DNA of 34,887 nucleotides, taken from positions 1 to 34,887 of IMG/VR virus record IMGVR_UViG_3300036846_001602; one strand, 5' to 3'. How positions within the stretch are numbered: position 1 is the first letter of the stretch; each line of letters begins with the position of its first letter. A model generated the notes under the pieces. The model did not search any database and was not told where the DNA came from. It worked only from the letters and a program-made list of their open reading frames with translations. Positions 5,917 through 34,159 of the stretch are shown here, one piece after another. Made by a program: the position numbers and the translations under genes. This stretch comes from a virus.

Positions 5917-7068
5917 ATGAATGTAGTTGATTTATTCTCTGGAGTTGGCGGGTTAAGCTTGGGGGCGACGCGAGCTGGGTTTAACTTGGCTGGTGCTGTT
6001 GAGTTAGATAAACATGCTATTTTTTCCCATGAATTAAACTTTCCAAAATCAACTCATTTACATCGTGATGTAAGTTCCCTTACAGCGAAAGATATTTTGT
6101 CAGCATGCGCCGTAACTGAAGTGGATTGTGTCATTGGCGGTCCTCCCTGCCAAGGCTTTAGCACTATTGGTAAAAGGAATGCCGATGATTCTAGAAATGA
6201 ATTATATATTCATTTTTTTAGATTGGTGAGTGAGCTATCGCCTATGTGTTTTCTGGCTGAAAATGTTCCAGGGATTATGAATGAAAAATATAACTCTGTT
6301 AGAGAGGAAGCGTTTTCTTTAGTCAGAGATGAGTATTGTTTATTACATCCGATTAAAGTTAATGCATCAAATTACGGAGCTCCAACAACGCGTACGCGTA
6401 TATTTTTCATGGGATTTAGGAAGGATTTAATAAATCAGCTAAAAGAATCTGATTTTTTCCCTAAAAATATTATTGAGCAAACACTTGTAAAAGATGCACT
6501 CCATGGGCTTCCTCAAGTCATAAGTAAAGAATGGCAGACTGAAGAGCAGGGATGGCGTTCTGTAATAATGGATAAAAATGGTTATTACTATGAAAGACTT
6601 TGGGGGCATATACCTCCTAATGTAGGTGATGCTGAGTCTATTTGTAACTTAAAAAAAGGATTAGTTTCTGGATTTCTAGGAACTGTTCACAATGACGAAA
6701 TACTTAAGAGATACGGTCAGCTTTCTTTTGGTGAAACCGATAAAATTTCGAGATCGCAACGACTTAATCCCAATGGTTTTTGCCCAACATTAAGAGCTGG
6801 GACTGGAAGCGACAAAGGGAGTTATCAAGCAGTTAGACCAATTCATCCGACCCAACCTAGGGTGATAACCCCGCGCGAAGCGGCTAGGCTGCAAGGATTC
6901 CCTGATTGGTTTCGTTTCCACCCTACAAAATGGCATAGTTTTAGACAGATTGGTAATAGCGTTAGTCCGCTTGTAGCTGAAGCTATGCTATTACCATTGT
7001 ATGAATATTGTTCCAAGGTCAAAAAAGAACCTTTGAATACCATGGAACGACCTTGTAGTATTCGATAA
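5917..7068 (+). CDS. DNA (cytosine-5) methyltransferase
   Basis: Transfers a methyl group from SAM to C5 of cytosine in DNA. It is 383 aa with all the landmark motifs: motif I DLFSGVGGLSLG (5-16), motif IV GGPPCQGFS with nucleophile Cys78, motif VI ENV at 115-117, motif VIII TRTRIF near 158-163, motif IX REAARLQGFPDWF and motif X QIGNSVSP. The target-recognition region between VIII and IX (about 200-310) gives no specificity I can read. AT-rich codon use contrasts with the phage core. It starts 49 bp after gene A, in the tin/old position of P2, and its 3' end overlaps the convergent neighbour by 50 bp. No Vsr or recognisable restriction nuclease is adjacent. It probably protects DNA from the system encoded by the next two genes (inference). 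Confidence 0.93.
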   Translation: MNVVDLFSGVGGLSLGATRAGFNLAGAVELDKHAIFSHELNFPKSTHLHRDVSSLTAKDILSACAVTEVDCVIGGPPCQGFSTIGKRNADDSRNELYIHFFRLVSELSPMCFLAENVPGIMNEKYNSVREEAFSLVRDEYCLLHPIKVNASNYGAPTTRTRIFFMGFRKDLINQLKESDFFPKNIIEQTLVKDALHGLPQVISKEWQTEEQGWRSVIMDKNGYYYERLWGHIPPNVGDAESICNLKKGLVSGFLGTVHNDEILKRYGQLSFGETDKISRSQRLNPNGFCPTLRAGTGSDKGSYQAVRPIHPTQPRVITPREAARLQGFPDWFRFHPTKWHSFRQIGNSVSPLVAEAMLLPLYEYCSKVKKEPLNTMERPCSIR

Positions 7069-8011
7069 AGTTACTGAGGTCTGAATTGGCTCCTGATGAG
7101 TTGGAGCCAATATAAAAACCTAGGTCGTCATGAATATTTTCAACTGTTGCTTCAGGTAACAGAGATTCAATATGTATCCTCTCTTTTAAAGACATGGCTG
7201 GTACGTTTATATTCTTAGGTTTGCGCCACTCTCCATCGTAAAATGGCCAGTTTCTAATTCTTGAAGAATCAATAAATTTAGCTTCTTCCTCATCTGAATT
7301 TTCGAGAACTATAGCCGTTAATGTGACCATTTGCTGTCCATCTTTATATACGAAAGAGGTTAATGGATGAATTCTAATATCACTTCGCCCTCTTAAACCA
7401 TGCCCTATTGCTCTTTTCATTGCATTTACAAGCAACGTTGGGTATTTTTTAAATCCTACATCTTCCTCAGTTGTATTTGTTGGGAGAAAATCTTCAGTTA
7501 ATATCTCAGCGATTTTTTGATATCTATATGCGCGTGGATCTCGCTCATTTGGGTCTTTGCCTAATGTTTCAGGTGTGGCATTTAGAGTGATTTTAAAGAT
7601 ATCTTTAGGTTTAAGCTTTGTAATTAGGCTAACAATTTCATTTAATTGAGAATTTAACTCAGAAGGCATGGCGTAGTCTAGCCAGATGATTGTTTTATCA
7701 TCAAAATTATAGCGGTTAATAAAATCCCCGCTCATTTCGGGAGTTTCACCTAAATTTATACATGATAGAGGTTTGTTAAAGTATTGTCGGCGATGTACGT
7801 TTTCATCCCCTTCAATAGAGATCATTTTGTTCACTTTTAGTAGATTGTGAACTTGTTTGAAATCTTCAAGAAATGGGCCACCGAATCCTATATATACATA
7901 CTCGGATATATTTGTGTAGTTGTTAAGTCTTCTTAAGGATTCGATATAAAGATTCCTTTCTATGGCTTTGTTTTGCCTTAAGTGATATGGGATACTTCCG
8001 CCGGTACTCAT
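7019..8011 (-). CDS. Unknown protein with Rossmann/methyltransferase-like N-terminus, partner of GHKL ATPase
   Basis: A 330-aa protein I do not recognise by name. The N-terminal part looks like a class I SAM-methyltransferase fold: a glycine loop after a strand (YVYIGFGGPFLEDF, about 38-51), an acidic end of a second strand (MISIEGDEN, Glu67/Asp69) and IIWLDYAMP (108-116) in the motif IV position. The C-terminal half (about 200-330) has no recognised motif. Its ATG overlaps the TGA of the GHKL gene (ATGA), so the two are made together. It could be an active methyltransferase, a degenerate one or an effector. No nuclease signature is visible. Its last codons overlap the 3' end of the convergent methyltransferase gene. 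Confidence 0.7.
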   Translation of the reverse strand: MSTGGSIPYHLRQNKAIERNLYIESLRRLNNYTNISEYVYIGFGGPFLEDFKQVHNLLKVNKMISIEGDENVHRRQYFNKPLSCINLGETPEMSGDFINRYNFDDKTIIWLDYAMPSELNSQLNEIVSLITKLKPKDIFKITLNATPETLGKDPNERDPRAYRYQKIAEILTEDFLPTNTTEEDVGFKKYPTLLVNAMKRAIGHGLRGRSDIRIHPLTSFVYKDGQQMVTLTAIVLENSDEEEAKFIDSSRIRNWPFYDGEWRKPKNINVPAMSLKERIHIESLLPEATVENIHDDLGFYIGSNSSGANSDLSNFIEYYKVVPWYSKVLF

Positions 8012-9432
8012 TGTTTAGCCTTCTTTAAAAAATCATCGAAACAGAACTGGCCAACCTCGGTAGGAGGTTGAGTTGCATCATCAAAAATAAATTCTGATAC
8101 CAATTTTATTTCACTATGTCTGCGGCTAAACTTTATTTGGCGTAGTGGATCTGAATCTCTTGGCATCGGAAGTTTTGGTTTGAAAACTTGTCCTCCAATA
8201 GAGCGTCGAACAGTAGACCAGTTTTCTTGAGGGATCGATTTTGTAAAATCAGTTTCGGTCGTCGAAACCATATTAGAAGCTGTGCTAACAAGTTGTTTTC
8301 TTTCTTCTGTATTACTTTTCCATTTATTTGTGAAGTCGGTAAAGAATTTTAAGCCTTCGCGCATGAAATCTTTGGTAGAAAGATATAGTTCAGAATTACC
8401 ATCAACCCCGCGTTTAGTTGTAGTTATTGGTAATAGTTCAGCATTTGATGACGTGAATATTACAACACCAGAAATACCGATAAACTGCGTATGATATTGA
8501 GGGACTCCAGCTTCCCCCCACCCCGTGAGTTTGGTTTTATCAGCATGAAGAACTACACGGTCATTGCATATGATTGTCCAACCAGCCTTTTCGGTTGTGG
8601 AACGACCTGATAACAAACTCTCCTCTTCTTCTTCGCTAGGCAGGTTACGATAGAAACCAACAGCAACTTTGATTGATACACCATTTGAATCGTTTCTATA
8701 AACATAAGGGGCGATACCATCCGTATTGCCTTTTATTGCTTCCTCATCAAAAATTAAATTAGTACTATTTGGCTTGACGAGATGTCCATTTATTTTAACT
8801 TCAAAACCTTTCTTTATAATTAAACTGTAATGATTTGCTATGATGTTAACTAATTCATCTTCAAATCCTCGATCTTTTGATAATGACGCTTTAATATCTT
8901 TTCGTAGGTTATTAATTTGAATGCTTACACCGGTTTCACTTAAGTCAACACTATTCCTTTCTAACTCCAATGACCAATTATCATCATCAGTCATCCATTC
9001 AGGGGATATAGTAACAGAGAATTGTTCCGTTTGTGTTTTACTCAATATTCGCGCAGAAGTCCCCATCTTGAAAATGGCGCGTTTCATACCGATACCATAT
9101 ACGCCAATTGTTGGGAGATCATCAGCCTCTCTTTCAGAAGGGCGACCTAGTCTAAATGCATAGTTTTCTGCGAGTTTTCCCGGGATTCCCCCACAGTTAT
9201 CTGTGATCTTGAAGCTGTTTTCATCAAATTCAATATGAGCATGATAACCGTTGTAAACGTCTGATTTTCCGAAAGTTTGTTCTGGTGTGAAATTGTTCTT
9301 TCTCAGAACTCCGTCAAGGCAATTATCTAGCAAATCTAAAATTGAGTCAGATAACTCAATATCTCGGGTGAGCATTTCGACAAAGAATCTTTTTGCTGGA
9401 AATGCTTGGATTTTAACATGTGGCGAAACCAT
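8008..9432 (-). CDS. GHKL-family ATPase (MORC/MutL/Hsp90-like)
   Basis: A 474-aa protein with an N-terminal GHKL ATP-binding fold. The N-box is DSILDLLDNCLDG (29-41) with Asn37 for Mg2+. The G1 box is ITDNCGGIP (76-84) and the G2 box is GVYGIGMKRA (110-119). The usual catalytic Glu of the N-box is Asp33 here. The region after about 230 resembles the second domain of MORC/MutL-type proteins in general layout, but I cannot fix its family. MORC-like ATPases linked to DNA methyltransferases have been described in bacterial restriction-modification contexts (Iyer, Abhiman and Aravind), which fits this neighbourhood. An AAAGGAT precedes the ATG. It is the first gene of the minus-strand pair and presumably has its own promoter in 9433-9600. 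Confidence 0.85.
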   Translation of the reverse strand: MVSPHVKIQAFPAKRFFVEMLTRDIELSDSILDLLDNCLDGVLRKNNFTPEQTFGKSDVYNGYHAHIEFDENSFKITDNCGGIPGKLAENYAFRLGRPSEREADDLPTIGVYGIGMKRAIFKMGTSARILSKTQTEQFSVTISPEWMTDDDNWSLELERNSVDLSETGVSIQINNLRKDIKASLSKDRGFEDELVNIIANHYSLIIKKGFEVKINGHLVKPNSTNLIFDEEAIKGNTDGIAPYVYRNDSNGVSIKVAVGFYRNLPSEEEEESLLSGRSTTEKAGWTIICNDRVVLHADKTKLTGWGEAGVPQYHTQFIGISGVVIFTSSNAELLPITTTKRGVDGNSELYLSTKDFMREGLKFFTDFTNKWKSNTEERKQLVSTASNMVSTTETDFTKSIPQENWSTVRRSIGGQVFKPKLPMPRDSDPLRQIKFSRRHSEIKLVSEFIFDDATQPPTEVGQFCFDDFLKKAKQ

Positions 9433-12809: not shown

Positions 12810-13676
12810 ATGGCAAAAAAAGCCTCCAAAATTTCTAAATGGTTCCGCATCGGTGTCGAGGGTGACACCTGCGACGGTCGTGTCATCGGCGCGTCCGATA
12901 TTCAGGAAATGGCTGACACCTTCGATCCGCGTGTCTACGGTTGCCGCATCAATCTCGAACATATCCGCAGCATCAATCCCGACGGTCAGTACGGGCGTTA
13001 TGGCGATGTTGCCGAGGTGAAAGCCGACATCATCGATGATGACTCCGCGCTGAAAGGTAAGCTGGCGCTGTTTGGCAGAATTGCCCCGCTCGACAACCTC
13101 GTCGACATGGTGGCGAAAGGCCAGAAGGTTTACACCTCAATGGAAATCCGCCCGAACTTTGCCAACAGCGGCAAGAGCTATCTCGTCGGGCTGGCCGTCA
13201 CCGATGACCCCGCAAGCCTCGGTACCGAATACCTCGAGTTTTGCAGCCGTGCCACCGCCAATCCGCTGAACGGCAAGAAAGACCAGCCGGGCGATCTCTT
13301 CTCAGTGGCGACACTCGCCGAGCTGGAATTTGAAGACCAGCCCGACACGCTTCTCACCAAACTGACCGACTCCGTTAAGGCCATTTTCAGTCGCCAGCAA
13401 CAGAGCGACGACGTGCGTTTCGCCGACGTGCATGAGGCGGTGACGTCTATCGCGGAACGTGTGCAAACCGGCGAGGAAGCGACGGAAACCCGCTTCGCGG
13501 CGCTGGAAAATGAACTCGCGACACTGAAACAAAACGTAGCCGCGCAGGGGGATGAAACTGCGCAGCAGTTCAGCACTATCCAGACCACCCTGGACAAAAC
13601 CGAGAGCATTACACAGCCGCGCCGTTTGCTGAGCACAGGTGGTGATGCCGGGGATGTGACGCTGACCGACTGCTGA
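12810..13676 (+). CDS. O: Capsid scaffold and maturation protease (P2 gpO)
   Basis: Internal scaffold whose N-terminal serine protease trims N, L and O itself during head assembly. It is 288 aa (P2 284). The triad known from P2 (Asp19/His48/Ser107) aligns to Asp22 (in DTCDG), His51 (INLEHI) and Ser110 (YTSMEI), shifted by three residues. The C-terminal half (about 160-270) is a charged scaffold helix region. The ATG at 12810 matches the P2 start (MAKKxSK). It is the first gene of the rightward head operon. Confidence 0.96.
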   Translation: MAKKASKISKWFRIGVEGDTCDGRVIGASDIQEMADTFDPRVYGCRINLEHIRSINPDGQYGRYGDVAEVKADIIDDDSALKGKLALFGRIAPLDNLVDMVAKGQKVYTSMEIRPNFANSGKSYLVGLAVTDDPASLGTEYLEFCSRATANPLNGKKDQPGDLFSVATLAELEFEDQPDTLLTKLTDSVKAIFSRQQQSDDVRFADVHEAVTSIAERVQTGEEATETRFAALENELATLKQNVAAQGDETAQQFSTIQTTLDKTESITQPRRLLSTGGDAGDVTLTDC

Positions 13677-18799: not shown

Positions 18800-19624
18800 A
18801 TGGAAAGACGAAGTTTTATACTACTTATGATTTCTTATGCACTTATAAGGAATACCCCCTTTGCCTATGCTGATGAACACCATACTTTTAAACAGCTACT
18901 GGCAGGACTTACTCTCAATGAGGTGCTAAATTCTAAAAAATATGTGGAGCCTGAGGTTGCAAGTGTTTTTAGAGTTGAAACTCAAGGCCCACTGAAGGGA
19001 GCGCGTTCGAACATAAAAATATCTGAAGACGCCATTTCACTTATTATCGCCTGTGAGGTGACGAGCAAGTCTAAATATAATAAATCTCTAACGCATCCAA
19101 TTTGGCCTAAAGGTCATTCAGGTGCAACGCTTGCATTCGGATATGATATTGGGCAAGCATCAGAAGAATCAATAAGAAATGCTTGGGTGAAATATCTTCC
19201 CATCGAAACTATTGATGAGATCGTTAAATGCGCAGGTAAAGTTGGCGAGCAAGGAAGAATATGTACTAAAACTATTAAACACGTTACGATTCCATGGGAT
19301 GCTGCAAATTCTCAGTTTCGTTTTTACCTTCCATATGTTATTGCTCAAACAGCATCTGCATTTGATAATTTTGAACATTTATCGCCTGATTCAAGAGGTG
19401 CGCTGGTTTCTCTCGTTTATAATCGAGGGGCTGATACATCCTTAACAAAGAGAAGGGAGGAAATGTATAACATTGGTGAATTAATGGCATCAATGAAATT
19501 CTCAGAAATTCCTAAGCAAATACGTTCAATGAAGAGACTTTGGCCTGGCGCTGATCAAAAAGGATTAATCAAAAGAAGGGAGTTGGAAGCCACATTATTT
19601 GAAATTGGTATGGTGAAAAAATGA
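18800..19624 (+). CDS. Exported pesticin-type muramidase (cargo)
   Basis: 274-aa protein with a signal peptide (ERRSFILLMISYALIRNTPFAYA, cleavage near 24). The catalytic domain resembles pesticin and T4-type lysozyme. Glu86 (ACEVTSK) and then WPKGHSGATLAFGYDIG supply Thr110 and Asp116. The spacings of +24 and +30 from Glu nearly equal those of the pesticin residues Glu178, Thr201 and Asp207. SLVYNRGAD and a final KRRELEA also fit this lysozyme-like family, which is found in bacteriocins and type VI effectors. The phage already has a lysis endolysin, so this one likely has another role. It is AT-rich, unlike its neighbours. Its TGA overlaps the protease start. Confidence 0.8.
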   Translation: MERRSFILLMISYALIRNTPFAYADEHHTFKQLLAGLTLNEVLNSKKYVEPEVASVFRVETQGPLKGARSNIKISEDAISLIIACEVTSKSKYNKSLTHPIWPKGHSGATLAFGYDIGQASEESIRNAWVKYLPIETIDEIVKCAGKVGEQGRICTKTIKHVTIPWDAANSQFRFYLPYVIAQTASAFDNFEHLSPDSRGALVSLVYNRGADTSLTKRREEMYNIGELMASMKFSEIPKQIRSMKRLWPGADQKGLIKRRELEATLFEIGMVKK

Positions 19625-20955
19625 GATGCTTACAGTTATTTACCCCTGCGTTATTAGTGTTGCTTTGCAATAAAGGTTTGTCTATGCCAGCAAACTATGT
19701 TGATGGCGTTATGGGTGATATAAATCAGAATCAATTACCAGGTTACAATCTAGATAATAAAAGTGTGGATAAGGGTAGGTCTTTTTTAGATAATACCCCT
19801 GCTCCTGATGAAGATGTTAGAACCACATACTTTCATAGCACATGTCTTGATTGCATGCCAGGCGCGCCTGTTGATGCAATCATCTCGACACAAAAGAAGA
19901 TTGAAAGCACTCCTCCCAAAGAAATGGAGGAGCTAATTGAACAAATAAACAATAATAGACAATCAATAGTTTTAGACAAATTGAAGGCGTGCAATAAGAC
20001 TGTACTTGATATGAGGAAACCTATTAAGGCGGATGGAGTGGATAGGCAATTTGATATGATTCAAGGCTTCGATAAATTATGTATTGGAAAGGGAGTTTCC
20101 AATTTGACATTATCAAGTTGCAGATCCAACTACGACTCATATATAGATGACTGTTTGTCTGGCGTGAAAAACGTGGCAGATCAGAGAATAGTGAATAGAG
20201 TCGGGCTACTTGTAGTATCCAAAGGTAACTTCAAAGGAATGCCTGCCTGTACAGCTACTATCATTTCCAATCGATACTTGTTAACTGCCCGTCATTGTTA
20301 TGTTGGCAAAGATGGCGACAAAGAAGGCATTGGAAATGATTACTTAACTTTCTCCCCAAATCAAAATATCGAGGATCTAAATAAAAATTTAGACGGAAAG
20401 ATAATAGGAGAACTCACAGAAGATGGAATTAAAGATATCAACATGCTAGATGTTCAACCAACAATATCACAAGATGTAATTATACTCGTACTTAAAGATT
20501 CAATTCAGCTAGAAAAACCCGAGATTAAAATAAAGTTCGCACAGGAAGTTAAAAACTGGCAGCAACTTACTTTACTGGGGTATCAAGAAATGTTGACAAG
20601 GAAAGATGATTTGTATTCACAAGGGTATCACTTGCCTGATGGTAAAACAGTTCGATACTTTCTTCAGAATTTCTTGATGGATGACTCAAAATCATGCTTT
20701 GTCGGTGCATATAAGCCCGGGGGGTTTCAGCATTCTTGTCAAAGTTTGTATGGCACCAGTGGTGCTCCGTTGTTTATTGGCGATTTGAAAGACTCTAATG
20801 TTGCTAGTGATACTGTTTATATAGCAGGAATCCAATCAAGAGGAAATGAATCAACAGCTATTGATCTCGAAAAGCAAGGTGCGGCAAACTCAGCATCTGC
20901 AATCAATGCTACAACCTTAACTGCTTTATTAAAAAATGGTGTTGATATGCGTTAA
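19621..20955 (+). CDS. Exported trypsin-like serine protease (cargo)
   Basis: 444-aa protein with an N-terminal signal sequence (RCLQLFTPALLVLLCNKGLS). The N-terminal 190 residues are a Cys-containing region of unknown role. The trypsin-type domain follows: His225 in LLTARHCYVG, Asp285 in SQDVIILVLKD and Ser380 in GTSGAPLF, a complete triad with the oxyanion glycine. It begins in an ATGA overlap with the muramidase gene, so the two are made together and are probably both periplasmic. It might process the muramidase, act on envelope proteins or serve as a toxin. The sequence does not decide between these. Low GC and absence from P2 mark it as acquired cargo. Confidence 0.82.
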   Translation: MRCLQLFTPALLVLLCNKGLSMPANYVDGVMGDINQNQLPGYNLDNKSVDKGRSFLDNTPAPDEDVRTTYFHSTCLDCMPGAPVDAIISTQKKIESTPPKEMEELIEQINNNRQSIVLDKLKACNKTVLDMRKPIKADGVDRQFDMIQGFDKLCIGKGVSNLTLSSCRSNYDSYIDDCLSGVKNVADQRIVNRVGLLVVSKGNFKGMPACTATIISNRYLLTARHCYVGKDGDKEGIGNDYLTFSPNQNIEDLNKNLDGKIIGELTEDGIKDINMLDVQPTISQDVIILVLKDSIQLEKPEIKIKFAQEVKNWQQLTLLGYQEMLTRKDDLYSQGYHLPDGKTVRYFLQNFLMDDSKSCFVGAYKPGGFQHSCQSLYGTSGAPLFIGDLKDSNVASDTVYIAGIQSRGNESTAIDLEKQGAANSASAINATTLTALLKNGVDMR

Positions 20956-23587: not shown

Positions 23588-25375
23588 ATGACAGTGAAAT
23601 ATAAAACCGTTGTCACCACGGCCGGGGCAGCAAAATTCGCGGCCGCACTGGTACCGGGGGGCAAAAAGGTCAACATCGTGGCGATGGCTGTCGGGGATGG
23701 TGGCGGCACGCTGCCGGAGCCGAACGCCGCGCAGGCAACGCTGATTAATGAGGTCTGGCGCAATGCCCTGAACAAAATCAGCCAGGACAAAAAACATAAA
23801 AATTATGTTGTGGCGGAGCTGGTGATCCCGCCGGAGACGGGCGGCTTCTGGCTGCGTGAAATGGGGCTCTATGACGACACCGGCACGCTGGTCGCCGTCG
23901 GCAATATGGCCGAAAGCTACAAGCCAAAACTCGAAGAGGGGTCCGGTCGGGCGCAGACCCTGCGCATGGTCATCATTCTGTCAGACCTTGAGTCTGTCGA
24001 GCTGGCTATCGATGCCTCGATGGTGATGGCAACACAGGATTATGTGGATGACAAAATCGCGGAGCATGAACAGTCACGCCGTCATCCTGATGCCACGCTG
24101 AAAGAAAAAGGGTTTACCCAACTGAGCAGCGCCACCGACAGCACGTCGGAGACGCTCGCCGCGACGCCGAAAGCCGTTAAGGTGGCATATGACCTCGCTA
24201 AAGAGAAATACACAGCGCAGGACGCGACCACAACGCAAAAAGGCATTGTACAACTCAGCAGCGCCACCGACAGCCCATCCGAGACGCTGGCCGCAACCCC
24301 AAAGGCCGTGAAAGCGGCGAATGACAATGCCAATGCGCGCGTGCCCGCCACGCGCAAAGTGAACGGAAAAGCGCTGAGTGATGACATCAGTGTGACCTCG
24401 CAGGATATTTTCGACACGCAGGCCATCGGCCTGACGGCGGAAGACCTCGACACGCTGAAAAAACCGGGGCTTTACTGTCAGCCCGCAAACGCCAATGCAA
24501 CAACCGCCCGGCACTATCCCGAGAACAGCGCCGGGACGCTGATAATTTATAAAAACGCCGGGGTTACGCAGATTTACTGTGTGTACAACTCATCGCGCAG
24601 TTATTCCCGCAGCCAGTATTCCACCGGCGGCTGGACCGTGTGGACGCCCGCCGACACGTTCCCGGTCGGGGCCCCTGTCGCGTGGCCGTCTGACAGTATT
24701 CTGACCGGTTACGCTTTCATGCAGGGCCAGACGTTTGATAAAGCAGTGTACCCGCTGCTGGCGATGGCCTACCCGTCGGGCGTTATCCCGGATATGCGTA
24801 CCTGGACGATTAAGGGCAAACTGGCCAGTGGTCGTGCGGTGTTGTCGCAGGAGCAGGACGGCAATAAATCCCATACTCACGGCGCGAGTGCGTCATCGAC
24901 CGACCTCGGCAGCAAAAATACCGGTGCATTCGACTATGGCACCAAAACCAGCAACGCCTTTGATTACGGGACGAAAACCTCGAATAACACCGGTGCGCAC
25001 ACGCACAGTATCTCAGGGACCGCAGCCAGCGCCGGGAACCACCACCACGCCCAGCGTGCATGGCGGGACGGTGGCGGCGGGAATAACCGCTATATCGACC
25101 GCAATGCGTTCCAGAAAAATGGATACGAAGACACCAGTACCACGACGACCGACGCCGGGGCGCATACCCACTCCATCAGTGGTACGGCGGCCAGCGCGGG
25201 CGCGCATGCGCATACCGTTGCCATCGGATCACATACCCACACCGTCGGGATTGGGTCGCACACCCATTCCATCGCTCTCGGGGCGCATTCCCACACGGTG
25301 ACCGTTGCCGCTGCCGGTAACGCCGAAACCACAGTCAAAAACATCGCATTCAACTACATCGTGAGGCTCGCATAA
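23588..25375 (+). CDS. H: Tail fibre protein H
   Basis: 595 aa (P2 H about 669). The first 150 residues are the conserved baseplate-binding part ([28 protein letters not shown]). Next come two 44-residue shaft repeats ([21 protein letters not shown]), then a region with no P2 similarity that I can recall. The distal part is rich in HTHS, HHHA, HAHT and HSHT motifs and ends [11 protein letters not shown]. The distal region sets host range and is unlike the P2 tip. The His-X-His motifs probably bind metal in a trimeric needle. Its TAA overlaps the start of G. Confidence 0.94.
24109..24320 (+). repeat. Two 44-codon fibre repeats in H
   Basis: The DNA from about 24122 recurs from about 24254 (132-bp period) with many silent changes. 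Both copies encode QLSSATDS(T/P)[12 protein letters not shown]. This is the Phage_fiber_2-type shaft repeat. Synonymous divergence shows that it is old and kept for the protein sequence. Confidence 0.85.
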
Positions 25376-25950
25376 TGACGTTCAAATTCTCTCCCCGTGA
25401 CCGCACCATTAAGGTCTATAACCTGCGGGCCGATACGCGTGAGTTTATTGGCATCGGGGATGCGTATCTCCCGGCGCATACCGGATTACCGGCTGACTGC
25501 ACCCATATTGCGCCGCCGGACGTTTTACCCGGCAACGTGGCGATTTTTAACGGTGAAACATGGCGTCAGGTGGAAGACCATCGCGGTGAGGCGGTGTTTG
25601 ATACCGTGTCAGGTGAGCCGGTGTTTATTACTGAGCCGGGCGCATTGCCGTCAGGTGTTACATCGGTTGCGCCGCACGGGCCGTATATGAAATGGGATGG
25701 CAAGGGCTGGGAAAGTGACACTGACGCTGAGCGCGATGCCGCGATTGCCTTTGCACGGGAAGAAAAGACCCGTCTGACGCATGCCGCCACGCTCACCATC
25801 AGCACCCTCGAGGATGCGGTTGAGCTGGGGATGGCGACGGATGAGGAACAGGTGCGCCTGACGGAATGGAAAAAATACCGGGTGCTGATTAACCGGGTTG
25901 AACCGGAAGATGCGCCGGAGGTGAGCTGGCCGTCACCCCCGGTCGCATAA
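25375..25950 (+). CDS. G: Tail fibre assembly chaperone G
   Basis: 191 aa, of the Tfa/gpG family that folds and protects the fibre tip. The N-terminal half (KFSPRDRTIKVYNLRADTREFIGIGDAYLPAHTGLP) and the C-terminal WKKYRVLINRVEPEDAPEVSWP signature are present. It starts by a one-base overlap with the stop of H, consistent with matched synthesis of fibre and chaperone. Confidence 0.93.
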   Translation: MTFKFSPRDRTIKVYNLRADTREFIGIGDAYLPAHTGLPADCTHIAPPDVLPGNVAIFNGETWRQVEDHRGEAVFDTVSGEPVFITEPGALPSGVTSVAPHGPYMKWDGKGWESDTDAERDAAIAFAREEKTRLTHAATLTISTLEDAVELGMATDEEQVRLTEWKKYRVLINRVEPEDAPEVSWPSPPVA

Positions 25951-25953
25951 AAA

Positions 25954-25976
25954 TGAAGCCCGCGTCGCGGGCTTAT
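25954..25976 (-). terminator. Terminator between G and the small membrane gene
   Basis: The hairpin AAGCCCGC-GAC-GCGGGCTT is followed on the minus strand by CATTTTTATG, so it best serves the minus-strand gene. On the plus strand it may also end the V-G transcript, though the U-run there is poor. Confidence 0.65.
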
Positions 25977-26092
25977 TCATACGGGCATTCCTGATATTCG
26001 TCATCGTCGTCATCCGCGAACCAGTGGCACCAGATAAAACCGACTGCCCCCCACGCCAGCGCACCGCCCACAATCCACAGTAAATACGTCAT
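25973..26092 (-). CDS. Small one-span membrane protein with acidic tail (cargo site between G and FI)
   Basis: A 39-aa protein in the gap where P2 carries Z/fun. It reads MTYLLWIVGGALAWGAVGFI, then WCHWFADDDDDEYQECPYE. Residues 3-21 form one transmembrane helix, followed by a Cys/Trp-rich juxtamembrane part and an acidic tail. A GAGGG seven bases before the ATG and a terminator at its 3' end support a real transcription unit antisense to the late operons. I do not recognise a family. It could be a lysogenic conversion or exclusion factor (inference). Confidence 0.6.
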   Translation of the reverse strand: MTYLLWIVGGALAWGAVGFIWCHWFADDDDDEYQECPYE

Positions 26093-26299
26093 GTTTACGC
26101 CCTCATTGATGGCGAAACGATAGCGGCATTATTCCCCTATTGATAATGGGTATTAACGATCGATACCGGCGGGATTGATCGCTGAAAACGATCGTAATAT
26201 TTCCCCGGGTTGTACCAGCGTCAGGCCAACCCGTACACATAGCCCCGCCCACGTCGCCCCCGGACAATGTCAGTCACCCCACTCAACGGAGTTAAACGG
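26093..26299 (+). promoter_or_regulatory. Candidate late promoter of the FI operon
   Basis: Gap before FI. GGTTGTACCAGCGTCAGGCCAACC (about 26209-26232) is an imperfect dyad. Its TGT-N12-CCA part (26211-26228) partly fits the Ogr box I recall and is centred about 55 bp before a start suggested by GACAAT at 26263-26268. The region must also hold the promoter of the small minus-strand gene. Confidence 0.35.
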
Positions 26300-27490
26300 A
26301 TGACTGATTTTCATCACGGCGTGCAGGTCGTCGAGGTCAACGACGGCACGCGCACCATTTCTACGGTTTCCACCGCCATTGTCGGGATGGTCTGCACGGC
26401 CAGTGACGCCGATGCAAAGACCTTCCCGCTCAATGAGCCGGTGTTAATCACCAACCCGCAAAGCGTCATCGGTAAGGCTGGCACCAGCGGCACGCTGGCG
26501 ACGGCGTTACAGGCCATCGCGGACCAGTCAAAGCCGGTGACTATCGTCGTGCGTGTCGAAGAGGGCACCGGCGACGACGAAGAGGCGGCACAGGCGCAGA
26601 CGATTTCCAATATCATCGGCACCACCGATGAGAACGGGAAATACACCGGGCTGAAAGCGCTACTGACAGCGAGCGCCGTCACCGGCGTGAAACCGCGCAT
26701 TCTCGGCGTGCCGGGACTGGATTCACAGGAAGTCGCGACCGCCCTTGTACCGGTGGCGCAGAAGTTGCGTGCGTTCGGGTATGTCTCGGCGTGGGGCTGC
26801 AAAACCCTGTCTGATGCCATCAAGTATCGTGACAATTTCAGCGCCCGCGAGCTGATGGTTATCTGGCCGGATTTCCTGTCATGGAATACCACCACCAGTG
26901 CCACTGAAACGGCTTACGCCACTGCACGCGCACTCGGTCTGCGTGCGAAAATCGACAATGACATCGGCTGGCACAAAACCCTGTCGAACGTCGGCGTGAA
27001 TGGTGTCACTGGTATCAGTGCCTCGGTGTACTGGGATTTACAGGAGCCCGGCACCGATGCCGATGTGCTCAATGAAGCGGGCGTGACCACGCTTATCCGC
27101 AAAGACGGTTTTCGTTTCTGGGGGAACCGTACCTGCTCAGATGACCCGTTATTCCAGTTTGAAAACTACACCCGTACCGCGCAGGTCATCGCCGACACGA
27201 TGGCCGAGGCGCACATGTGGGCGGTGGATAAACCGATTACCGCCACGCTCATTCGCGACATCATCGATGGCATCAATGCCAAATTCCGCGAGCTGAAAAG
27301 CAACGGCTATATCGTCGATGCCACCTGCTGGTTTGACGACAACGCCAACGATGAAGAGACGCTGAAAGCCGGGAAGCTGTATCTCGATTACGACTACACG
27401 CCGGTACCACCGCTGGAAAACCTGACCCTGCGCCAGCGCATCACCGATAAATACCTGGCGGATCTCATCTCGTCTGTGAACGGCCAATAA
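26300..27490 (+). CDS. FI: Tail sheath protein FI
   Basis: Contractile tail sheath subunit. It is 396 aa, the P2 length, and extremely similar to P2 FI (HHGVQVVEVNDGTRTISTVS, SNVGVNGVTGISASVYWDLQ, PVPPLENLTLRQRITDKYLA). The ATG at 26300 gives the P2 start. The upstream ATG at 26267 adds 11 residues with no counterpart in P2. It is followed by FII after 12 bp. Confidence 0.98.
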   Translation: MTDFHHGVQVVEVNDGTRTISTVSTAIVGMVCTASDADAKTFPLNEPVLITNPQSVIGKAGTSGTLATALQAIADQSKPVTIVVRVEEGTGDDEEAAQAQTISNIIGTTDENGKYTGLKALLTASAVTGVKPRILGVPGLDSQEVATALVPVAQKLRAFGYVSAWGCKTLSDAIKYRDNFSARELMVIWPDFLSWNTTTSATETAYATARALGLRAKIDNDIGWHKTLSNVGVNGVTGISASVYWDLQEPGTDADVLNEAGVTTLIRKDGFRFWGNRTCSDDPLFQFENYTRTAQVIADTMAEAHMWAVDKPITATLIRDIIDGINAKFRELKSNGYIVDATCWFDDNANDEETLKAGKLYLDYDYTPVPPLENLTLRQRITDKYLADLISSVNGQ

Positions 27491-33124: not shown

Positions 33125-34159
33125 CTAGGAATTATTTTTCCAGTGGTGTATCACAAGTGGTCCTGCCCACGAAGGCATTAAGGAGTTGTTGAATAAGCAG
33201 AAAAGATCATTAGGTTCATCAGGGTTTTCCCTGCGAAATTTCCAAGCCTTATTTGTACCTTTCTCATGAATACCCAACCCACCGTCATCAAACATCATTA
33301 TCTGAAATTCAGGCTTATCTATGCCACTAGATTTTAATTCTTTCAGGAATGGTCCGTCTACATTCATTAATGTCTTTTCAATTTCTTTTGCATAATAAGA
33401 AATTCTATTGCTGAATACTGAAACGCGCGTGGCAGTCACTGCTGTAGTCATCCCCATACCGATTGGCGCATAAATTTTTCCGTCTACCTCGAAGGGCATG
33501 TTTATTCCGTTGTTCCTCATGTTTGCTATATCTGCATCGGTAATGGGTTGAGTGTTAGCCAAGCTTATAGCACCCTTCATATGATAAGGTTCGGCTTCAT
33601 CAGGCCAGTTTCGAATAAAGGTCTCAACTAAATCTCGTTGAGAATAAAGATTGGGCTCAACATCTTTATCATGATGTTTTATATCGATAAAAAGCACAGC
33701 ATCATTGTAAACTTTCAGGAATAACACCCATTCTGAGCGGTCCGAGTACTTATTCATTGAATCGACCGGATTCAGTGGTAGATGCAGGTGATGGATACCC
33801 CAGTCCGCCCAGAGGCCATCAGTTCTTTTCTTTTCTTTTTTACCACTGGTGTCGTTAAAAAGCGTCAATGTCTTACTCTGATAAGGATTGACGTCGCCGC
33901 CTGCAGTAAATAAATCTTCAATTCTTTGCAGTCCTGCTTTTGAATCATCAGAAATATTAACGGGGAATCGGTCTGATTTAAGAATTGTACGTTTTGCTGG
34001 GGCTATATAGCGTAAAAGAAAATCACACCATCTCAGCAGCGGATCGTGAAGATTAGAATGCGCAGTTTTAACATATGATAGCTCAAAGGCTTCAATAGCT
34101 TTTTCCGCAATTTCATCGATTTCTTTATGTAAATCTATAGTTTTTGTTGTTCCTGACAT
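33125..34159 (-). CDS. Unknown 344-aa protein in right flank
   Basis: A soluble 344-aa protein I do not recognise. The N-terminus is helical (IDLHKEIDEIAEKAIEAFEL). The centre has a striking strand-rich His region: ADWGIHHLHLPLN (about 117-129), WVLFLKVYNDAVLFIDIKHHDKD, then VETFIRNWPDE. The paired HHLHL and IDIKHH could form a metal site, but no known nuclease motif is complete. A GGAG precedes the ATG. It is AT-rich, unlike the phage core, and lies beyond the ogr terminator, so it is probably flanking host or island DNA. It may be an accessory or defence gene (weak inference from location). Confidence 0.7.
   Translation of the reverse strand: MSGTTKTIDLHKEIDEIAEKAIEAFELSYVKTAHSNLHDPLLRWCDFLLRYIAPAKRTILKSDRFPVNISDDSKAGLQRIEDLFTAGGDVNPYQSKTLTLFNDTSGKKEKKRTDGLWADWGIHHLHLPLNPVDSMNKYSDRSEWVLFLKVYNDAVLFIDIKHHDKDVEPNLYSQRDLVETFIRNWPDEAEPYHMKGAISLANTQPITDADIANMRNNGINMPFEVDGKIYAPIGMGMTTAVTATRVSVFSNRISYYAKEIEKTLMNVDGPFLKELKSSGIDKPEFQIMMFDDGGLGIHEKGTNKAWKFRRENPDEPNDLFCLFNNSLMPSWAGPLVIHHWKNNS

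Follow-up and report, generated by a model that had tools for sequence, protein, structure and literature searches.

A conserved 39-codon membrane peptide gene beside the tail-fibre genes of P2-like phages, preceded by a putative Dam/OxyR-type switch element

Morons, Dam/OxyR switches and exclusion genes are all known kinds of genetic element, and the regulator that acts at the agn43, Mu com and P22 gtr sites is known. Three GATC sites precede agn43 (flu) of E. coli, at spacings of 19 and 13, and three precede Mu com/mom, at spacings of 18 and 13. The P22 gtrABC genes, a three-gene enzyme operon convergent to the tailspike gene, have four GATC in two pairs of the form ATTGATCG-N7-CGATCAA, with an extra OxyR half-site between them. 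For this operon, OxyR binding, its loss upon methylation and phase variation have been measured (PMC2909390), and such elements have been taken as a signature of phase variation (PMC3688519). In Salmonella, the 34-aa inner-membrane peptide OpvA is encoded together with the Wzz-like OpvB under Dam/OxyR control and phase variation (PMC3350482), and opvAB expression leads to altered O-antigen length and phage resistance (PMC4652898), showing that O-antigen can be affected by loci encoding a peptide of this kind (PMC3350482). Among phages, cor of phi80, mEp237, N15 and HK022 is a small conversion gene that adjoins tail-fibre genes and confers superinfection exclusion, while P2 itself carries fun(Z), a 1587-bp gene, on the minus strand between G and FI. 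Our literature search, with subscription literature largely outside it, returned no paper linking a Dam/OxyR element to cor, to the P2 G/FI slot, or to tail-fibre or prophage exclusion genes.

Here we describe a much smaller gene in that same slot. The window, meaning the whole stretch of DNA analysed, consists of a single virus record, 34,887 bases long, that is P2-like by gene content (gene A, tube FII, baseplate J and sheath). The features on which the argument draws are as follows.

23588-25375, plus strand: gene H, tail fibre (profile match)
25375-25950, plus strand: gene G, tail-fibre assembly protein (Caudo_TAP; profile matches), the convergent neighbour
25956-25974, minus strand: terminator hairpin beginning at the peptide stop codon (terminator scan and folding)
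25973-26092, minus strand: ECPY membrane peptide gene, ATG start, 39 codons plus stop (open reading frame, homologues, dN/dS)
26100-26104, minus strand: ribosome binding site GAGGG, 7 nt before the peptide ATG (read from the sequence)
26117-26122, minus strand: predicted -10, TATCGT (near-invariant block)
26141-26146, minus strand: predicted -35, TTATCA, inside the near-invariant block CCATTATC (conservation)
26146-26160, minus strand: putative OxyR half-site 2, ATCG-N7-CCAT (comparison by eye)
26158-26193, no strand assigned: GATC triplet (26158, 26177, 26190), Dam/OxyR-type element (pattern match, homologue conservation, geometry)
26178-26192, minus strand: putative OxyR half-site 1, ATCG-N7-CGAT (comparison with P22 gtr)
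26267-27490, plus strand: gene FI, tail sheath (profile matches), the divergent neighbour

A preliminary description of this locus had proposed a small gene with a ribosome site and its own terminator, encoding one membrane segment and an acidic tail, on the minus strand between G and FI, the place occupied in P2 by fun(Z), and all of these points are borne out. A T-run on the minus strand directly follows the hairpin, and the 61-nt terminator stretch has a folding energy of -19.9 kcal/mol, with a z of -2.5 relative to shuffled sequences. The terminator scan is by itself at chance level (two found, against a shuffle mean of 1.1), but a GC hairpin recurs right at the stop of the homologous genes. 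Kinship with fun(Z) fares differently: the P2 gene is 1587 bp long against 39 aa here, our tblastn search of the phage collection with the peptide gave no P2 match, and the 300 bp upstream of fun(Z) hold no GATC. The antiviral hotspot of P2-like phages in the accessible text of PMC9122126 is old-tin rather than the G/FI slot, and we do not equate the two. What we observe is an extra gene between two conserved genes, with a terminator and a predicted promoter, in a slot that in P2-like relatives holds other genes or nothing. By analogy, the ECPY peptide gene is best read as a moron, or lysogenic-conversion gene, that would be expressed from the prophage.

Homologues of the 39-aa product, MTYLLWIVGGALAWGAVGFIWCHWFADDDDDEYQECPYE, were found by tblastn and by fetching the matching loci. 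They are carried by P2-like IMG/VR contigs (85-97% identity), Buttiauxella prophages (51-59%), Enterobacter phage ENT4 (52%) and Enterobacter hormaechei IncFIB plasmids that are phage-plasmids (55%). Seven records matched in the phage collection, ENT4 alone significantly (E 6e-5), and the plasmid collection returned 27 matches, 10 of which cover at least 80% of the peptide. At least 6 of 392 genomes had a match in a family-wide search that scored the first 19 candidates of most genomes, and in which the three weakest (L240, L241 and L242, E 6e-7 to 2e-5) are possible relatives only and one (L239) is frame-shifted; an order-wide search gave matches in 6 of 394 genomes, from which five weak ones within long frames were dropped and one (G001) was retained. 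A scan of IMG/VR with a degenerate DNA pattern built on the C-terminal motif recovered 67 stretches, five of them on contigs already found by other searches. Of the 67, 64 have an intact start and are hydrophobic over their N-terminal half, and the other three are cut by a contig end. Locus counts throughout are not independent, because many of the loci are near-identical prophages.

The homologues preserve start, frame and stop. Pooled dN/dS is 0.21 across 16 distinct 117-nt coding sequences and 0.22 across 37 distinct 120-nt coding sequences, a value of about 0.2 that indicates purifying selection on the peptide gene, while the remaining five frames are open in 7, 0, 2, 0 and 10 of 54 distinct coding sequences. 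The ECPY[DE] ending occurs in all 42 distinct peptides with 125 nt of upstream sequence, where it is largely imposed by the search pattern, and a C-x-Y-[DE] end is retained in relatives found without the pattern (the chromosomal L240-L242 and the Mu-like L322). Judged by these comparisons the 39-codon gene is a real, conserved gene, and the preliminary description's call for a conserved reading frame is answered by the 64 complete IMG/VR homologues and their dN/dS. Its further remark that such genes are usually missed in annotation applies to one of the ten plasmid records with the whole gene, which leaves it unannotated, and to the ENT4 record, which is without any annotation; it does not apply to the other nine plasmid records, where the gene is entered as a hypothetical protein.

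The predicted product has a hydrophobic segment at residues 4-22 (the best 19-residue window, mean Kyte-Doolittle 1.85) and a tail of five Asp followed by Glu. No Lys or Arg precedes the hydrophobic window in 41 of the 42 distinct peptides, and at least one lies within the ten residues after it in 33 of the 42, a charge distribution that, by the positive-inside rule, would place the acidic tail in the cytoplasm. Pfam, NCBIfam and PADLOC contain no entry for the family, none of its PHROG matches is significant, and no homologue of known function appears among the peptide matches. Weak hits to phrog_1270 (E 0.84) and DUF4031 (E 0.18) were dropped as chance, and a CydX-like subunit, a reading prompted by an N-terminus that we took to be CydX-like, was rejected for want of such a match in Pfam or NCBIfam. 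We also rejected identity with Cor, a lipoprotein of about 77 aa that is encoded in the same direction as the tail genes and to which the ECPY peptide bears no sequence similarity: inspection of the peptide reveals no lipobox, and apart from host genus the tblastn lists for the two differ.

Upstream of the peptide gene lies the only match in the window to GATC-N14/15-GATC-N9-GATC, against 0.03 expected. This triplet has the geometry of agn43 and Mu com, although in both of these the element is oriented oppositely with respect to its gene, and their products are unrelated to the peptide. It shares with P22 gtr the 13-bp GATC pair and similar flanks, and the convergence of gtrABC on the tailspike gene is like that of the peptide gene on the tail-fibre assembly gene (Tfa), but the window's triplet has no counterpart to the fourth GATC or to the half-site between the gtr pairs. 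Likeness to opvAB is one of description rather than sequence, in that both would be tiny inner-membrane peptides under Dam/OxyR phase variation; opvAB has four GATC, is chromosomal and includes OpvB. The full triplet is present in 52 of 60 distinct homologue upstream regions, and two of the three GATC in five more, at about -100, -87 and -69 from the ATG with almost no gaps. In one lambdoid contig (L303) it sits farther up, ahead of the first gene of a pair, and the two members linked to a GT25 gene (L243 and L292) lack it. By eye, putative half-site 1 is as in gtr, and putative half-site 2 is one base off, with CCAT in place of CTAT.

Two blocks that follow the triplet, CCATTATC and TATCGTT, hardly vary among homologues. 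We infer that they form the promoter, with a -35 and a -10 placed 18 bp apart, while a consensus promoter scan picks a different candidate. Given the set GATC spacing upstream of the gene, as in agn43, Mu com, phi80 cor and the P22 pairs, the peptide promoter looks like one that carries a Dam/OxyR-type switch element, at which OxyR would bind and expression would switch. The gene is probably phase-variable, by analogy with these systems. The preliminary description had mentioned neither this element, nor a linkage to tail-fibre genes across phages, nor a connection to cor or to glycan enzymes.

The same element precedes other small genes. Upstream of cor in phi80 and mEp237 we find the same GATC triplet at -109, -96 and -78 (spacing 13 and 18); in N15 (L433) and HK022 (L435) cor has one GATC only, and the switch may have been lost there. 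A general triplet pattern matched at least 120 IMG/VR stretches, 104 of those listed being new, and among the matches listed cor is nearby in 64 of these 104. Cor was identified by record annotation (111 records matched with Cor), and the records name it a superinfection-exclusion protein. A tail fibre, Tfa, H or FI gene lies within 4.5 kb in 87 of the 104, again among the matches listed, by a generous criterion that roughly a third of positions in a P2-like genome such as this one would pass on an uncomputed estimate. In P2-like loci, the 1.5 kb before FI contains the triplet in 12 of 80 genome loci and 3 of 80 IMG/VR loci, after three matches inside tail-fibre coding sequence (L114, L117 and L119) had brought 15 down to 12; elsewhere in those loci we count two matches in 1.30 Mb, as compared with 0.23 Mb of slot.

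A pattern for the peptide-type promoter found 62 IMG/VR stretches. Three of these (L320, L321 and L323) and one genome locus (L325) have no ECPY gene and encode instead a 61-84-aa membrane protein with CxxC...CxxC; of three such proteins scanned, one gives a weak match to a ClpX-type zinc finger (E 8e-5, under the curated cut-off). This CxxC-pair family appears as a second small membrane protein family under the same element, and in L303 it (12899-13153) stands in tandem with an ECPY peptide; L322 has a divergent ECPY peptide. In Rahnella-type phages a 46-49-aa protein follows the triplet, in the Rahnella prophages L082 (4600-5000) and L086 a 47-49-aa protein (MELTQQETEIIAGFLAENWAAF...) codirectional with FI does so, and in a Pectobacterium prophage (L093) the same slot and triplet are followed by an Acyl_transf_3 enzyme gene. 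No evident gene follows the triplet in the slot of the Serratia prophages L090, L092, L098 and L099 or of L080 and L102 (Brenneria, Pectobacterium), where a terminator-like hairpin lies 100-150 nt past it; empty cassettes or small RNAs are suggested alternatives for these.

By analogy, the peptide gene is best read as serving exclusion or conversion. On balance we favor a moron under host Dam/OxyR control whose product would alter the cell surface, or exclude phages that use the linked tail fibre. The host Dam methylase and OxyR would set peptide expression in a bistable manner, so that lysogens would probably split into ON and OFF cells. The product would be a single-pass inner-membrane peptide with its N-terminus outside and its ECPY[DE] tail in the cytoplasm, and in ON cells this tail might dock on a partner in the inner membrane or cytosol, for which an LPS/O-antigen or other envelope-glycan enzyme is the likeliest candidate. 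Docking would then alter or hide the receptor of phages with the linked tail fibre. We lean towards the unmethylated state being ON because the predicted OxyR sites lie just upstream of the -35, the position of an activator. Such a polarity would be like that of opvAB, where a dam mutant is reportedly locked ON, and unlike that of agn43.

Three converging lines of evidence lead us to surface change or exclusion. The genes under the same element are cor, gtr and an acyltransferase. The slot in other P2-like phages holds Acyl_transf_3 (L071, L093 and L133) or GT25 (L116) genes, along with hexapeptide-repeat transferases below the cut-off (L073 and L153), a theme that is not general, since many relatives, chiefly E. 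coli types, hold unrelated genes there. Finally, relatives of the ECPY peptide occur directly after a GT25 gene (contig L292, Pfam), after a similar GT25-like gene judged by eye (chromosomal L243) and beside a GT9-type gene (L245). A different way of excluding phages would be for the inner-membrane peptide to block entry of related phage genomes while leaving the surface unchanged. A small protein with a single transmembrane segment is what one would expect of such a block, as is an element shared with cor, the exclusion gene of lambdoid phages. Yet the GT25-linked and GT9-adjacent relatives and the surface enzymes of the slot point to glycans, and a block acting independently of the surface needs no linkage to tail fibres, and we regard it as unlikely.

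That linkage is close. In the window, the neighbours are G and FI, and a convergent Tfa gene is present for 63 of the 64 complete pattern-scan members, the exception (L303) having its Tfa gene (Caudo_TAP) convergent too but farther off. The stop-to-stop gap to the convergent gene is 18-47 bp, and that gene is Tfa-like in all 86 cases tested, a set that includes repeated fetches of some loci. FI lies divergently upstream in 55 of the 64, and some of the other nine are cut by contig ends. The family extends to P2-like phages with an inverted tail operon (L271 and L309), to a lambdoid phage with a J-type tip protein (L303) and to a Mu-like phage with GP46 and Baseplate_J (L322). In its position among these sequences, the peptide gene is linked to tail-fibre genes across phage types. 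The plasmid copy and ENT4 share one 2,654-bp block at 96.4% identity, which spans an FI remnant (272 aa), the region upstream of the peptide gene with its element, that gene itself and Tfa, so that all of these moved together. This block is what one would see if the peptide gene and its promoter merely rode along with the tail-fibre module, through recombination ending just past Tfa, with a function unrelated to receptors. We find such passive carriage quite improbable, given that the peptide adjoins tail-fibre genes also where FI is not beside it (the Mu-like and lambdoid members) and that surface change or exclusion is also the common theme of the other genes under the element.

The GATC cluster could conceivably be a phage repressor operator, or a regulator of the divergent FI promoter, with no part for Dam or OxyR. 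The window's GATC sites do form an inverted repeat, ATTGATCG-N7-CGATCAAT, and FI is close in P2-like members. However, the triplet keeps a constant distance to the peptide ATG and not to FI, it occurs in other phage types and in a phage-plasmid with an FI fragment only, and the sites that it matches, those of agn43, Mu com and P22 gtr, have a known regulator, so we give the operator reading little credence. A type I toxin or antiholin-like lysis peptide, which would likewise be short and hydrophobic with a predicted promoter and a terminator of its own, is hardly tenable for a product with a strongly acidic, highly conserved tail, no match to a known family and no lysis genes nearby.

More broadly, and with somewhat less than even confidence, we propose that the Dam/OxyR triplet is an exchangeable control cassette beside the tail-fibre genes of P2-like, lambdoid and Mu-like phages and a phage-plasmid. 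It would stand before interchangeable conversion genes (cor, the ECPY peptide, the zinc-ribbon-like membrane protein, the 47-aa Rahnella protein and an acyltransferase) and allow lysogens to hedge between phage-proof and phage-open states, with ECPY as a new exclusion peptide family steering an envelope-glycan enzyme. If so, a new peptide family joins the prophage conversion genes, and Dam/OxyR switching, as in gtr, opvAB, agn43 and mom, extends to the superinfection exclusion class, of which cor would be the best-known member. Exclusion by phi80 lysogens would then be expected to be heterogeneous and to change in dam and oxyR mutants, and the triplet could serve as a DNA signature for finding conversion genes too small for annotation.

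The record has further features of its own. Near its right end, a 344-aa protein encoded at 33125-34159 on the minus strand matches the anti-phage defence gene PD-T4-7 in PADLOC (E 2e-142). Adjoining gene A, the stretch 5917-9432 encodes a C5-cytosine methylase together with one Methyltransf_35 and one HATPase_c_3 protein and has the look of an island for defence or modification. At 18800-20955, upstream of the baseplate genes, two extra genes encode a 274-aa protein that matches nothing in Pfam and a trypsin-like protease of 444 aa, each with a signal-like N-terminus.
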